In this document: in pieces, positions 9,473 to 29,344 of the stretch
How the letters are laid out: every line of letters starts with the position of its first letter
How positions within the stretch are numbered: the first letter of the stretch is position 1
IMG/VR virus record: IMGVR_UViG_3300037346_000270
Span: 1 to 39,610 of that record
DNA from: a virus
Length of the DNA stretch: 39,610 nt
Strand: one strand, 5' to 3'
The notes under the pieces: generated by a model
Database searches by the model: none
Told to the model about the DNA's origin: nothing
The model's input: only the letters and a program-made list of their open reading frames with translations
Made by a program: the position numbers and the translations under genes

Positions 9473-10652
9473 TTATAATTACATCGTATCAACCGGCGTG
9501 ATCGTTCCCGATACGGCATCTTTGCGCTCTGTGGTTGAGGCTGAGTACAAGTCCGTTTTGGGCGCCGACCTTCCCGTCACCCCAGAGACCCCGCAAGGCG
9601 TTCTTATCACTGCCGAGGTCGAGTCCCGCGAAGGCATGGTGAGAAATAACGCAGAGCTGGCAAACCAGATCAACCCCGATATTGCCGGCGGCGTGTGGCT
9701 CGATGCGATCTGGGCTCTGACTCGCGGTAAGCGTCGAGGCGCAACAAGGTCGAGACTTTCCGGAGTTGTGTTCTCGGGTATCCCCGGAACAATAATCCCG
9801 GCCGGATCGCTCGCAAGCGTGGCGTCTTCTGGCGCTAGATTCAGAACCATCGTCAACATCGATCTTGGGGCATCTGGATCTACCTTTAGCTCCATGGAGG
9901 CTGTTGATGCTGGCCCCGTCGCCGCCCCTATCGGAGCCATTACCGAGATCGCATCAAGCGTGCTCGGCTGGGAGACTGTTGTTAACCCTTCGGCCGCCGA
10001 GATAGGCCTAAGTCAGGAGTCTGATGTTTCAAGCCGCAGGCGTAGACGTAACACCCTTGCACTTCAATCTGTAAGTCCTCAAGAAGCAATCATCTCTCGG
10101 ATTTACAGCCTTGACGGTGTTGTTTCTCTGAGCTTCAGAGCCAACATCGCGCTTTCTGACGTAATAATCGATGGTGTAACGATCACCTCGCGGAGCATTT
10201 ACGTTTGCGTTGATGGCGGCCAGAACATCGATATTGCTACGGCAATCCTGTCTTCGTCTGGCATCACTGATTACAGCGGATCGCTAGTTGTCAGTGTGAT
10301 CGAGCCAGCCAGCCAGCAGGTTTATCAAGTAAGATTCGACAGGCCTACCGAGCGCACATTTCGGGCCAGGGTGACGGTCAAGCCTTCCAGTCTCGACGTC
10401 ATGACGATCATCCCTGACGCAATTGCTAAAGGAACCCTTGGCGAGCTTGATGGCGACTCTGGCCTAGAAGTCAATCAAGACCTTTCAGCGTTTGAGCTTG
10501 CCGGGTACATCAACCAGGTGGAGCCGCGCATCTTCGTAACCCGGCTAGAGACTTCGGAGGACGGAGTGGTCTGGTCTAGCGATGACGTGATCATCAAGCT
10601 AAACGAAGTTGCCAGGCTTCCTAAGTCGGCCATCCAGGTAGTCGTAGCATGA
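9465..10652 (+). CDS. Baseplate J-like protein
   Basis: A 395-aa protein from the ATG at 9465; an upstream ATG at 9447 would overlap the wedge gene further. The N-terminus has the classic J/gp47 pattern: a start near DYNYIVSTGVIVPDTASL, then PETPQGVLITAEVESRE and WLDAIWALTRGKRRGATRS. The family forms the wedge arm that joins the baseplate to its periphery in P2, Mu and T4-like tails. It ends ATGA-coupled to the next gene. Confidence 0.88.
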   Translation: MADYNYIVSTGVIVPDTASLRSVVEAEYKSVLGADLPVTPETPQGVLITAEVESREGMVRNNAELANQINPDIAGGVWLDAIWALTRGKRRGATRSRLSGVVFSGIPGTIIPAGSLASVASSGARFRTIVNIDLGASGSTFSSMEAVDAGPVAAPIGAITEIASSVLGWETVVNPSAAEIGLSQESDVSSRRRRRNTLALQSVSPQEAIISRIYSLDGVVSLSFRANIALSDVIIDGVTITSRSIYVCVDGGQNIDIATAILSSSGITDYSGSLVVSVIEPASQQVYQVRFDRPTERTFRARVTVKPSSLDVMTIIPDAIAKGTLGELDGDSGLEVNQDLSAFELAGYINQVEPRIFVTRLETSEDGVVWSSDDVIIKLNEVARLPKSAIQVVVA

Positions 10653-11245
10653 GCACCATCCAGGATTTTGACTCAAGCCTAAATTTGATGGTCGCTATCC
10701 TGTGGCAGTACGAGGATGCCGAAAAACTAAAGGCCATCGTCACGGCAAAGCAGCAATGGGTTAACCAGAATCAGCGAGACTTCTGGTATAGCTGGTATCG
10801 AGATGTTTTCAATATCGATACCGCCAACACCTTTGGCCTTTCGGTTTGGGCAAGAATTCTGGACGCCCCCCTTACGATCAGCGTGGCCCCTCAAAAAAAC
10901 AAAATCCCATTCGGTTTCGGTTCGTTTAACAAGAACTTCAGCAATGGTAATTTTGGGATAAACAATGATCAATCTCAGGGATTGAGCCTTGAGCAGCAGC
11001 GTCTCGTTATTAGGTTCAGATATTTCCAGATAACCACGACCTGCTCAATACCAGAGATAAATCAATTCCTTAAGGATGCGTTCTCGTCCGAAGGGAAGGC
11101 TTATGTTACCTACGATAAGACGGAAAACAAGATTGTCTACAACTTCGGTTTCGCTCCTGACAGCCAGCTAAAATTTGTTCTAGACGAGTTTGACCTGCTG
11201 CCAAGGCCTGCAAGTATTGGTGTAAAGTGGCAGGTGATCCCGTGA
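10649..11245 (+). CDS. Baseplate protein, DUF2612 family
   Basis: A 198-aa protein placed directly after the J-like gene and before the fibre gene, as in other small myophages, where DUF2612 proteins play the role of P2 gpI. The N-terminal helical part with WVNQNQRDFWYSWYRDVFN and WARILDAPL is characteristic. It probably attaches the tail fibre to the baseplate. Confidence 0.75.
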   Translation: MSTIQDFDSSLNLMVAILWQYEDAEKLKAIVTAKQQWVNQNQRDFWYSWYRDVFNIDTANTFGLSVWARILDAPLTISVAPQKNKIPFGFGSFNKNFSNGNFGINNDQSQGLSLEQQRLVIRFRYFQITTTCSIPEINQFLKDAFSSEGKAYVTYDKTENKIVYNFGFAPDSQLKFVLDEFDLLPRPASIGVKWQVIP

Positions 11246-18010: not shown

Positions 18011-18418
18011 CTATAGTTCTAGTGCCATCTGATCGTTTTTCGTGATCGTGAACGAGAAGCCAACGATCTTACGCCCTTGTCGTCGTGGCTCTGCTGTCAC
18101 ATGCAGGGCGTCGGCGAACGACTTAGGTAACGCTGCCGGCTGACCGTTTTCCAGTTCCTGCCAGCGATCAACCAGCGCCGCGGTGAACTCAGGGGAAAGC
18201 TGGGCGACCACTACGAAGCTGTCACGCTTGCAGACCAGATACTCGCGGGACACCACGCCATTGCCTGACTTGGCTCCATCCCCCATTGGGGGTTGGGCGA
18301 TAACGCCGCGAGCAACAAGACGCTCTATTGATTGCTTCACCTTGTCATGCCGAGAATTTACCAGATCGGCAATCTGCTGGCTGCTCATCGTGATGGCGCT
18401 GCTGGTTACGAGGCTCAT
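18011..18418 (-). CDS. Rha-like phage regulatory protein
   Basis: A 135-aa protein. The N-terminal MSSQQIADLVNSRHDKVKQ is the Rha signature of a winged-helix region; YLVCKRDSFVVVAQLSPEF and LVDRWQELE follow as in the family. Rha proteins are phage regulators reported to hinder infection in hosts lacking integration host factor; the mechanism is poorly known. It is ATGA-coupled to the DUF2591 gene. Confidence 0.78.
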   Translation of the reverse strand: MSLVTSSAITMSSQQIADLVNSRHDKVKQSIERLVARGVIAQPPMGDGAKSGNGVVSREYLVCKRDSFVVVAQLSPEFTAALVDRWQELENGQPAALPKSFADALHVTAEPRRQGRKIVGFSFTITKNDQMALEL

Positions 18419-18807
18419 TGCATCAGCTCCTTTGGAACGCTGACTTCATGGCCAAGCTTAGCGGTTACGATCGCTCTGCATGCCGCTACTAGAGGAGAGC
18501 TTATACCGCTCTCATCACCTTCTCCGTCGATCATTTCGTATCGTGCATTCCAGCCGGCATCTGAGATCATCCATCCCGCATACCAGCTATATCCATTGGT
18601 GGAGCGGTCAAGACGGATTCCGTGCTTCTCAATCAGCGGGCCTCCTTGACTCCAGTTCACACTTGGAATCCAAGGAGATTGCAGGCCGGGAGCCACGTCG
18701 ATGCGCAATTCTTTTCCGCGAGAGTCATCTATCTTTTTTTTATCGGCTTTTGCCACGGCCCAATCCAATGCCGGGCCAACTAACTCGCAGGTATTAACCT
18801 CAACCAT
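18415..18807 (-). CDS. DUF2591-like phage protein
   Basis: A 130-aa protein with the DUF2591 pattern: start VNTCELVGPALDWAVAKADK, a central WSQGGPLIEKHGIRL, and a C-terminal SPLVAACRAIVTAKLG. Function unknown; common in phage early regions. Its ATG is only about 20 nt after the U-tract of the structured RNA at 18828-18960, and it lacks a strong ribosome site, so it is likely the gene most directly controlled by that leader. Confidence 0.75.
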   Translation of the reverse strand: MVEVNTCELVGPALDWAVAKADKKKIDDSRGKELRIDVAPGLQSPWIPSVNWSQGGPLIEKHGIRLDRSTNGYSWYAGWMISDAGWNARYEMIDGEGDESGISSPLVAACRAIVTAKLGHEVSVPKELMQ

Positions 18808-18827
18808 TTCAATTTTCTTTCACCCAC

Positions 18828-18960
18828 AAAAAAAGGCTTAAGGGTATGCCGGTAGTAGACCTGTTGGATCTGGATCGAGGGGGAACTCAATCCAACAGGA
18901 ACGGCACACTCTTAAACCTTGTTAACCCTCGATCCATAAACGCTGGGCTACTACACCCGT
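18828..18960 (-). ncRNA. Structured leader/small RNA, copy 1
   Basis: Reading the minus strand, four pairs of complementary segments occur in the order D1 C1 A1 B1 C2 B2 D2 A2. D is 18954-18948 with 18858-18852 (7 bp). C is 18935-18926 with 18881-18872 (10 bp, GGATCGAGGG). A is 18920-18902 with 18851-18833 (about 17 of 19 positions pair). B is 18899-18890 with 18869-18860 (10 bp). A2 runs into seven Ts and GTGGG, 20 nt before an ATG. A and B form a terminator-like hairpin; C and D cross it. A second copy with the same order and linkers lies at 25762-25906. The family is not recognised. Confidence 0.8.
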
Positions 18961-18966
18961 TCGCTG

Positions 18967-18994
18967 AGTATACCGATTCTGGCGCATCGGTAAA
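18967..18994 (-). promoter_or_regulatory. Promoter of structured RNA copy 1
   Basis: On the minus strand TTTACC (18994-18989) and TATACT (18972-18967) are 16 bp apart and place the start near 18960, just before helix D1. The second RNA copy has the comparable pair TTTACG and TATAGT. The interval also forms a 7-bp inverted repeat (18971-18977 with 18986-18992). Confidence 0.6.
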
Positions 18995-25726: not shown

Positions 25727-25755
25727 TTTACGGCGGACTGTTTGTTTCGTATAGT
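25727..25755 (+). promoter_or_regulatory. Promoter of structured RNA copy 2
   Basis: TTTACG (25727-25732) and TATAGT (25750-25755) are 17 bp apart and place the start near 25762, just before helix D1. The -10 and following bases (TATAGTTCG) equal those of the main rightward promoter at 22933. Confidence 0.65.
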
Positions 25756-25761
25756 TCGCCC

Positions 25762-25906
25762 TGTTGGAGAGTGTTAGACCTCGAAGACAAATCAGGATCG
25801 ACGGCTAATAGAGCCTTTTGATGTTCGCTGTTCCGGGATTGGTTGACTTGCCGTCGATCCAGGCCAATTTCGGAGTCTAACCAGCGAACAATCAAAGGGC
25901 TTTTTT
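25762..25906 (+). ncRNA. Structured leader/small RNA, copy 2
   Basis: Helices in the same order as copy 1. D is 25773-25779 with 25875-25881 (7 bp). C is 25795-25804 with 25851-25860 (10 bp, GGATCGACGG). A is 25812-25830 with 25882-25901 (19 bp, one bulge, one wobble). B is 25833-25842 with 25864-25873 (10 bp, two wobbles). Stem A is followed by TTTTTT and GTGGG. The ATG of the next gene is at 25921, with GGGAGAAGGG right after the U-tract. The bases of A, B and D differ from copy 1 but pairing is kept, which supports a real RNA fold. Function is inferred. Confidence 0.82.
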
Positions 25907-25920
25907 GTGGGAGAAGGGAA

Positions 25921-26244
25921 ATGTCGAATCAAAATACGCCAGTAGTTTTAACCGTAGCCGAGGGCTTCGAAGTTCAGATCACTCCTGAGATTTTGGCAAA
26001 AGCATTCTGGGCTATGCATTGTGGTCAGCAGGCTGATTTCCTTGATTCTCTTGGTGCTGAGATCGAAGCAGACCACGTCACGAACAAGAACAGCTACAGC
26101 TACGGCGAGCTGCAATGGTGCTACCTGAAAGACGAACTTCGCCAGCCGGGCCGCGAGCGCGCAAACAACGTACATATGGCCCTGTCCGCATTCGCCTTCG
26201 ACTTCTGGCCACAAAAGCAGAATGGCGCTCGGGAGGGCATCTGA
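25921..26244 (+). CDS. Hypothetical protein behind structured RNA, 107 aa
   Basis: The ATG at 25921 has a strong AGAAGGG site directly after the U-tract of the structured RNA; longer frames would run into that RNA. The protein starts SNQNTPVVLTVAEGFEVQIT and continues ILAKAFWAMHCGQQADFLDS, a pattern seen in other phage early proteins. Function unknown. It heads the recombination block, so the leader probably controls that block. Confidence 0.7.
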   Translation: MSNQNTPVVLTVAEGFEVQITPEILAKAFWAMHCGQQADFLDSLGAEIEADHVTNKNSYSYGELQWCYLKDELRQPGRERANNVHMALSAFAFDFWPQKQNGAREGI

Positions 26245-26245
26245 A

Positions 26246-26998
26246 ATGACTGACGATATGTTCAAGCCAAAACCGAACATGCGAATTTGGGATCAGGTCG
26301 AGAAGACAGATACCCGATACACCAAAAGCGCAAAGGTCGGCGGCCAGCAAATTACCGCGCTGAACGGCACGGCAATGATCATGAAGGCGACTGAAGTTTT
26401 CGGGCCTGTAGGCTTCGGATTCGGCTGGACTGTCCTTGAAGAGCGATTCGATAAGGGCGCCGAGATTTTCAGCGGTGAAGGTGATAAGCGCGTGAGTCTC
26501 GGCTATGAACTGAACCACACCGTTAAAATCAAGTTCTGGGCCGTTGTAGATGGCCAGCGCGGCGAGTTCGAGCAGTACGGCTGCACCCAGTACCTGTACA
26601 AGTCGAAGTACGGCACGACGACCGATGGCGAGGCACCCAAGAAGTCATTGACAGATGCGATCAAGAAGTCGCTTTCAATGCTCGGCTTCAGCGCTGACGT
26701 GTTCCTGGGTCTGTTCGATGACCAGAATTACGTCCAGTCGCTCATTGCCGAAGAGGCCATTGAGAATGCAGAGGACAAAGAGGCTGAGATCGCCCGCCAA
26801 GAAGCTGAGCGTCTCGCCTACATCAAGGGTCTGATTGAATCCATGAATGGCGCCCTGTCGCTGCGTGAGGCTACCAAGATTCACGATTCGGCAATCCGCA
26901 TCCTAACCGCTCGCAAGGATCAGGCGGGTATGCGCCGGGTAATCAAGGAGCTGAAAACCCTGACCGAAACCAAATTCAAAGTGGAGCAACCGCAATGA
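26246..26998 (+). CDS. Rad52-like single-strand annealing protein
   Basis: A 250-aa protein from the ATG at 26246, after GGGAGGG. The core (GTAMIMKATEVFGPVGFGFG, then CTQYLYKSKYGTTTDGEAPK and KKSLTDAIKKSLSMLGFSAD) matches the Rad52/Sak-like fold, in which the last helix block is conserved. A charged helical C-terminus follows. Such proteins anneal complementary single strands in phage recombination and replication. Gp157 and SSB genes follow, a usual partner set. Whether it is Sak-, Erf- or RecT-type needs a profile search. Confidence 0.72.
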   Translation: MTDDMFKPKPNMRIWDQVEKTDTRYTKSAKVGGQQITALNGTAMIMKATEVFGPVGFGFGWTVLEERFDKGAEIFSGEGDKRVSLGYELNHTVKIKFWAVVDGQRGEFEQYGCTQYLYKSKYGTTTDGEAPKKSLTDAIKKSLSMLGFSADVFLGLFDDQNYVQSLIAEEAIENAEDKEAEIARQEAERLAYIKGLIESMNGALSLREATKIHDSAIRILTARKDQAGMRRVIKELKTLTETKFKVEQPQ

Positions 26999-29271: not shown

Positions 29272-29344
29272 GCGGGTAAGCATAAGGTTTGCAGCAAGCC
29301 TTCCAAGCTTCGCGTGATGGGTTCGACTCCCGTTACCCGCTCCA
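29272..29344 (+). tRNA. tRNA-Gly (anticodon TCC)
   Basis: Acceptor GCGGGTA/TACCCGC pairs fully, the T arm (ATGGG-TTCGACT-CCCGT) is good, the D loop contains GG, and CCA is encoded. The anticodon loop CTTCCAA gives TCC at 29302-29304. The anticodon stem has one mismatch at its base and the D stem is short (3 bp), so it is somewhat unusual but probably functional. Confidence 0.75.

Follow-up and report, generated by a model that had tools for sequence, protein, structure and literature searches.

The window analysed here, a whole viral record of 39,610 nt (IMG/VR record IMGVR_UViG_3300037346_000270), contains two stretches on opposite strands, the first at 18828–18994, that a first-pass annotation described as paralogous pseudoknot RNAs. 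The locus raises the question of what such knotted RNAs are and what they might do for the genes that lie behind them. Our preferred answer, which comparison of sequences and predicted structures leads us to hold with a little less than even confidence, is that they represent a new family of phage leader RNAs acting in cis, most likely conditional terminators (attenuators) of the gene behind.

Copy 1 lies on the minus strand. A consensus scan places a sigma70-like promoter with 9 of 12 consensus matches at 18967–18994 (−35 TTTACC, 18994–18989; 16-nt spacer; −10 TATACT, 18972–18967), with a predicted transcription start at about 18960. Hairpin E (18945–18958, identified by reading the sequence) has 3 bp (GGG/CCC, 18958–18956 with 18947–18945) and holds the segment D1 (GTAGTAG, 18954–18948) within its 8-nt loop; since the promoter ends just 5′ of E, the predicted RNA would start almost at E. 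C1 (TGGATCGAGGG, 18926–18936) pairs, by structural fit and pair counts, with C2 (18881–18871), in the apical loop of hairpin B. Stem A (18833–18920; A1 18920–18902, A2 18851–18833), supported by folding, structural fit and pair counts, is a long terminator stem of 19 positions with one A·C mismatch, and it encloses a TT linker, B1 (18899–18890), C2, B2 (18869–18860) and D2 (18858–18852). The U-tract (18834–18828) is followed by GTGGGTGA (within 18820–18834), which includes a Shine-Dalgarno-like GGGTGA (18825–18820), and 20 nt from the U-tract is the start codon (18807) of a gene (18415–18807, minus strand) for a 130-aa NinX-like protein (Pfam PF10765, E = 1.8e-11; phrog_4389). The copy 1 promoter also carries a perfect inverted repeat, TACCGAT-N8-ATCGGTA, between its −35 and −10 boxes (about 18971–18992, minus strand), where related right-arm promoters have TGGCC-N6-GGCCA; these repeats are possible operators for a phage repressor.

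Copy 2 lies on the plus strand. Its sigma70-like promoter (25727–25755; TTTACG, 17 nt, TATAGT) is followed by hairpin E (25769–25782; GAG/CTC, 25769–25771 with 25780–25782) with D1 (GTTAGAC, 25773–25779) in its loop, by C1 (GGATCGACGGC, 25795–25805), which pairs with C2 (25850–25860), and by stem A (25812–25906; A1 25812–25830, A2 25882–25901, with one bulged A), again supported by folding, structural fit and pair counts. Inside stem A are B1 (25833–25842), C2, B2 (25864–25873) and D2 (25875–25881). The U-tract ends at 25906, 14 nt from the start codon (25921) of a gene for a 107-aa protein (25921–26244, plus strand) that has no PHROG or Pfam match; behind it lie an exonuclease gene (26222–26998) and then genes for a Gam-like protein and SSB. 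Other Pseudomonas phages have homologs of the 107-aa gene, but although the homologous gene is there, the copy 2 element is absent at the matching junction.

When both sequences were re-read, the helix order reported in the first-pass annotation, D1 C1 A1 B1 C2 B2 D2 A2 followed by the U-tract, proved exact in both copies. The linkers it gave as near identical are indeed the same for A1–B1 (TT), B2–D2 (1 nt) and D2–A2 (0 nt), but that between B1 and C2, said to be 8 nt in both, has this length in copy 1 and measures 7 nt in copy 2, and the GTTCC that it took for unpaired bases after A1 is actually made up of the final G of A1, the TT between the two helices and the CC with which B1 opens. As it had stated, the bases of helices A, B and D do differ between the copies with pairing kept in both, and helix C has nearly the same sequence. 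The nested part of the structure (A and B) folds better than dinucleotide shuffles (z = −3.6 for copy 1 and −3.8 for copy 2), a relaxed four-helix descriptor scores 91 and 96 (best of 300 shuffles each, 69 and 67), and the proposed paralogy of the two copies survives testing. What had been missed are helix E, the promoter, the tie to a downstream start codon, the larger sister form described below and the nature of the whole as a cassette.

Further members of the family to which these copies belong (type I) were found by scanning viral contigs first with a pattern and later with covariance models, a search of phage genomes that the annotation had suggested, and they come from about 18 related phage records; pattern matches in L011, L013, L019 and L023 were set aside as chance. 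One phage carries several different copies, mostly with one on each divergent early operon, and the gene behind each is a different one. More distant members are present in the Pseudomonas phages Orisa01–03, Orimi01, AH02 and HU1, in Pantoea phage PdC23 and in the Erwinia phages Stean, Pavtok and PEp14. Hairpin E has 3–5 bp and presents D1 in an 8-nt loop, with exactly one unpaired base 5′ of D1 and none 3′. Among 17 distinct sequences, which are related to each other and were counted with linkers removed and with both register and removal guided by the structure, 96.9% of cells pair, compared with 32–45% once the partners are slid, and helices E and D are 100% paired. Double compensatory changes occur at 38 of 49 pairs and are spread over all five helices (E 3/3, D 4/7, C 7/11, A 14/18, B 10/10), giving a covariation score of 0.709 against at most 0.134 when slid. 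The annotation had pointed to uncompensated changes in homologous phages as evidence that would tell against it; instead, paired bases are altered with compensation, as in D of Stean and Pavtok (GTGGAAC:GTTCCAC vs. GTGAGAC:GTCTCAC), and further independent compensations in C distinguish PEp14 from Pavtok and L043 from the rest. Its claim of selection for RNA structure is thus borne out by covariation in A, B, C, D and the newly found E.

Two smaller features of type I deserve mention. A UGA at the start of the B1–C2 loop is kept in most members and is possibly a tertiary contact. A subtype at L172:1646–1748 (plus strand) and L206:8877–9061 (minus strand) has A, B and D like those of type I, and its C consists of two short helices split by an internal loop.

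A sister form (type II) came to light through weak matches in the same phages; weak R1 matches in L015, L021 and L024 had been put down to chance, a reading that was dropped when they turned out to be type II. Its layout has the E loop/D2 knot of type I and a 19-bp stem A; hairpin B is short, with a loop that matches the bases immediately 5′ of A1, and D2 and A2 are separated by an additional hairpin, F. A U-tract, a Shine-Dalgarno site and an ATG follow. The common form of the E loop:D2 pairing is TTGGCGG:CCGCCAA, and it is CTGCAAG:TTTGCAG in G025. One scan gave type II matches in at least 120 viral contigs, where a rough estimate of the number expected by chance is about 4, and 114 contigs among the matches listed reduce to 89 distinct cores. 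In an alignment fitted to the model, 99.0% of cells are paired and 27 of 33 pairs are double-changed (at most 53% paired when slid), and the covariation score is 0.787 against at most 0.116 when slid. Helix C, as at least four contiguous Watson-Crick pairs between the B loop and the stretch 5′ of A1, is present in 80 of 83 members, as opposed to 249 of 1570 combinations in which loops were swapped onto other members' linkers; stem A is exactly 19 bp in 71 of the 83. The Burkholderia phages BcepMigl, DC1, BcepIL02 and CSP3 carry type II, and at the three loci read (BcepMigl, DC1 and BcepIL02) it heads replication genes. It is also found before the TolA-like gene of Leptolyngbya phage Lbo-JY16 (L212; cassette at 10505–10672); the TolA-like protein is about 53% identical to a query from Pseudomonas-like phages, and this and the type II cassette make the stated cyanobacterial host of that phage look doubtful.

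Placement relative to promoter and start codon is conserved as well. The type II promoter is placed as in copy 1, with the −10 box ending 9–11 nt before the end of E1 in 51 of 83 members, and the box has at least 5 of 6 matches in 55% of members vs. 15% in shuffled sequence. The distance from T-run to start codon is 9–14 nt in 80 of 112 cassettes, compared with 21 of 221 ordinary hairpin/T-run sites in viral loci from later scans, and the motif GTGGG(T)GA, common to the cassettes, lies in this interval. The downstream genes are mutually unrelated and of early type: among the 63 distinct downstream proteins, replication initiators, primosomal proteins (phrog_3992 in 16, DUF1376 in 12) and HNH endonucleases are frequent, Erf, YqaJ, RecT and antirepressors are found as well, and long replication or recombination operons often have a cassette in front. 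Phages Orisa01 (L200) and Orimi01 (L206) are 99.8% identical on both flanks of an exchanged block that comprises the cassette and the genes behind it and is similar only over 62 nt around the promoter; in Orisa01 the block, a recombination module, starts at the cassette promoter. From this pair it appears that cassettes may double as recombination borders. The fixed spacing between T-run and start codon, together with co-exchange with the downstream genes, argues for a leader that acts in cis.

How might such a leader work? Each cassette runs from a predicted promoter, through an RNA that opens with hairpin E and a putative intrinsic terminator ending in the U-tract, to a Shine-Dalgarno site and a start codon, and its 19-bp stem A is interwoven with two pseudoknots (E loop/D2 and B loop/C1). 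In the mechanism we propose, C1 would pair with the B loop before A2 is transcribed, and D2 would next pair with the E loop, locking the C/B pseudoknot as an antiterminator. If C is held, the lower half of A beside the U-tract would close late or never and polymerase would read into the gene; if A closes fully, transcription would stop and leave a short RNA of about 130 nt. Candidates for tipping the balance would be the pace of the polymerase or Nus factors, a protein of the phage, or an RNA. We infer that transcription runs as predicted, that A terminates it in vivo, that C antagonizes A and that the purpose would be the timing or dosing of early genes.

Conditional termination is favored by the formation of C before A2, by the energies of C and lower A, and by rod geometry in type II. 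These energies are about −20 kcal/mol for the C duplex and −10 to −15 for the lower half of A; complete A, at −25 to −34, outweighs C at equilibrium, and this counts against the predicted switch. In type II rod models C needs 2–12 bp of lower A to be open in every arrangement tried. Among the type I models C and A are exclusive in two and compatible in the one that has B and C folded back alongside A, so all type I helices may coexist in such an arrangement and the switch is not forced there. At the level of sequence, the stem and U-tract do lie between promoter and gene start, as in an attenuator; a fixed 19-bp A exceeds what a simple terminator needs, and some promoters are weak by consensus, both of which speak against attenuation. 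There is little conserved unpaired sequence other than C and the ends of D, and hence no evident ligand pocket. We put forward tentatively, as more doubtful than probable, the fuller picture of a ligand-free, self-knotting terminator in which a co-transcriptional pseudoknot would decide between stop and go, a portable early-gene cassette of many mostly unintegrated Proteobacteria phages, or alternatively of an RNA that would join itself or a protein in trans through C and D.

The same cassettes can be read in other ways. They might be independent small RNA genes (RNA morons), each yielding a compact, knotted transcript of about 130 nt that would target, in trans, a protein or RNA of the host or the phage, the next gene being incidental. 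A predicted promoter at the 5′ end and a terminator at the 3′ end of the structure, the multiplicity of different copies in one phage and the retention of structure despite sequence divergence all agree with this, but neither the tight T-run-to-start spacing with its shared GTGGG(T)GA nor the co-exchange with downstream genes is predicted by it, and no conserved target-pairing stretch was seen; we think it unlikely, and the free RNA of 130–145 nt implied by the first-pass annotation, while possible, is less supported than a cis-acting leader. We give marginally less credence to a constitutive structural leader that does not switch, serving as a 5′ mRNA shield, a fixed terminator leak or an RNase III site (in the 19–20 bp stem A). 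It fits an RNA that is structured from its predicted first nucleotides, a stem A fixed at 19 bp and a Shine-Dalgarno site free just past the U-tract, and it leaves unexplained why the B loop always matches C1 beside A1 and why A closes on the U-tract. Among narrower ideas, a leader peptide was rejected because left-arm copies lack an ATG, although the ATGGATCGAGGG copies could open a short ORF, and a guide RNA for HNH proteins (HEARO/IscB-like) was rejected because most downstream genes are not HNH genes.

Quite improbable, in our judgment, is a put-like RNA, in which the nascent knot would bind RNA polymerase and make it pass both the knot's own terminator and those further along the early operons. 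The put RNA of HK022 is about 70 nt with two stem-loops in a V and no pseudoknot, and it suppresses termination in cis through RNA polymerase, whose zinc-binding domain it binds (PMC9378689). There is a likeness, in that putL and putR are structured, cis-located RNAs, two per phage, on the divergent early operons past the early promoters (PMC9378689); most of the larger records with at least two copies likewise have them on both divergent early operons, often heading long replication/recombination operons. The put RNAs, however, share sequence similarity and have no terminator (PMC9378689), whereas the cassettes are divergent in sequence, have five helices and two pseudoknots over about 130 nt, end like an intrinsic terminator with a 19-bp stem on a U-tract and a start codon right behind, and lie within operons, at a distance of several kb from the divergent start. 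The extended start-associated sequence (ESAS) of cluster K mycobacteriophages, a 13-bp SAS (GGGATAGGAGCCC) with two 17-bp inverted repeats, is also a repeated element and lies just before the start codons of early genes that are unrelated to one another; its function is unknown, and its authors found that sequence changes do not support RNA pairing (PMC3203893). The cassettes resemble it in position and in having inverted repeats, but they have strongly supported pairing, pseudoknots and a terminator, and no ESAS-type sequence was seen 5′ of their start codons. Attenuators and riboswitch expression platforms are like the cassettes in having a promoter, a structured leader, a terminator-like stem with U-tract, a Shine-Dalgarno site and a gene, and competing helices are a possible further likeness. 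The cassettes differ from them in their unrelated downstream genes, unusually long 19-bp stem and two pseudoknots, and in having no conserved ligand core or leader peptide common to all copies.

Bacterial genomes gave a different picture from viral contigs. A first pattern scan of them had no matches, a plasmid search was negative, and strictly filtered searches of 399 Pseudomonas, 369 Gammaproteobacteria and 398 Pseudomonadota genomes (about 1,160) gave no real match, the type II search being run without a positive-control genome. The weak bacterial matches examined, which might have indicated a prophage origin (L202–L204), are ordinary terminators sharing GCTTTTTTGTGGG. Absence from the bacterial genomes searched suggests that the cassette is mainly a feature of phages not integrated as prophages. 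Should it be a conditional terminator, it would let phages that have no known N-like antiterminator time their replication and recombination genes, and it would be a portable control part. Cultured phages that carry it (AH02, Orisa, PdC23, PEp14 and BcepMigl) make the family directly testable.

That the layout belongs to no known family, as the first-pass annotation suspected, holds for Rfam 15 and for the open-licence literature, where no description of it was found. Copies 1 and 2 have no Rfam match above cut-off and one chance match below it; for type II there were none in 20 sources, members included, and one member had only chance matches below cut-off. The family is new to Rfam 15 and the open literature searched, and the kind of control would be a variant of attenuation. 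Apparently undescribed, this family of structured RNAs is abundant in uncultured phages; covariation supports its two pseudoknots unusually strongly, and its members sit where the early genes of phages are turned on. The same Rfam comparison gave a tRNA match at 29272–29341 (plus strand) of the window, at 30 bits against a cut-off of 29; it is not called by ARAGORN and is perhaps a decayed or odd tRNA.
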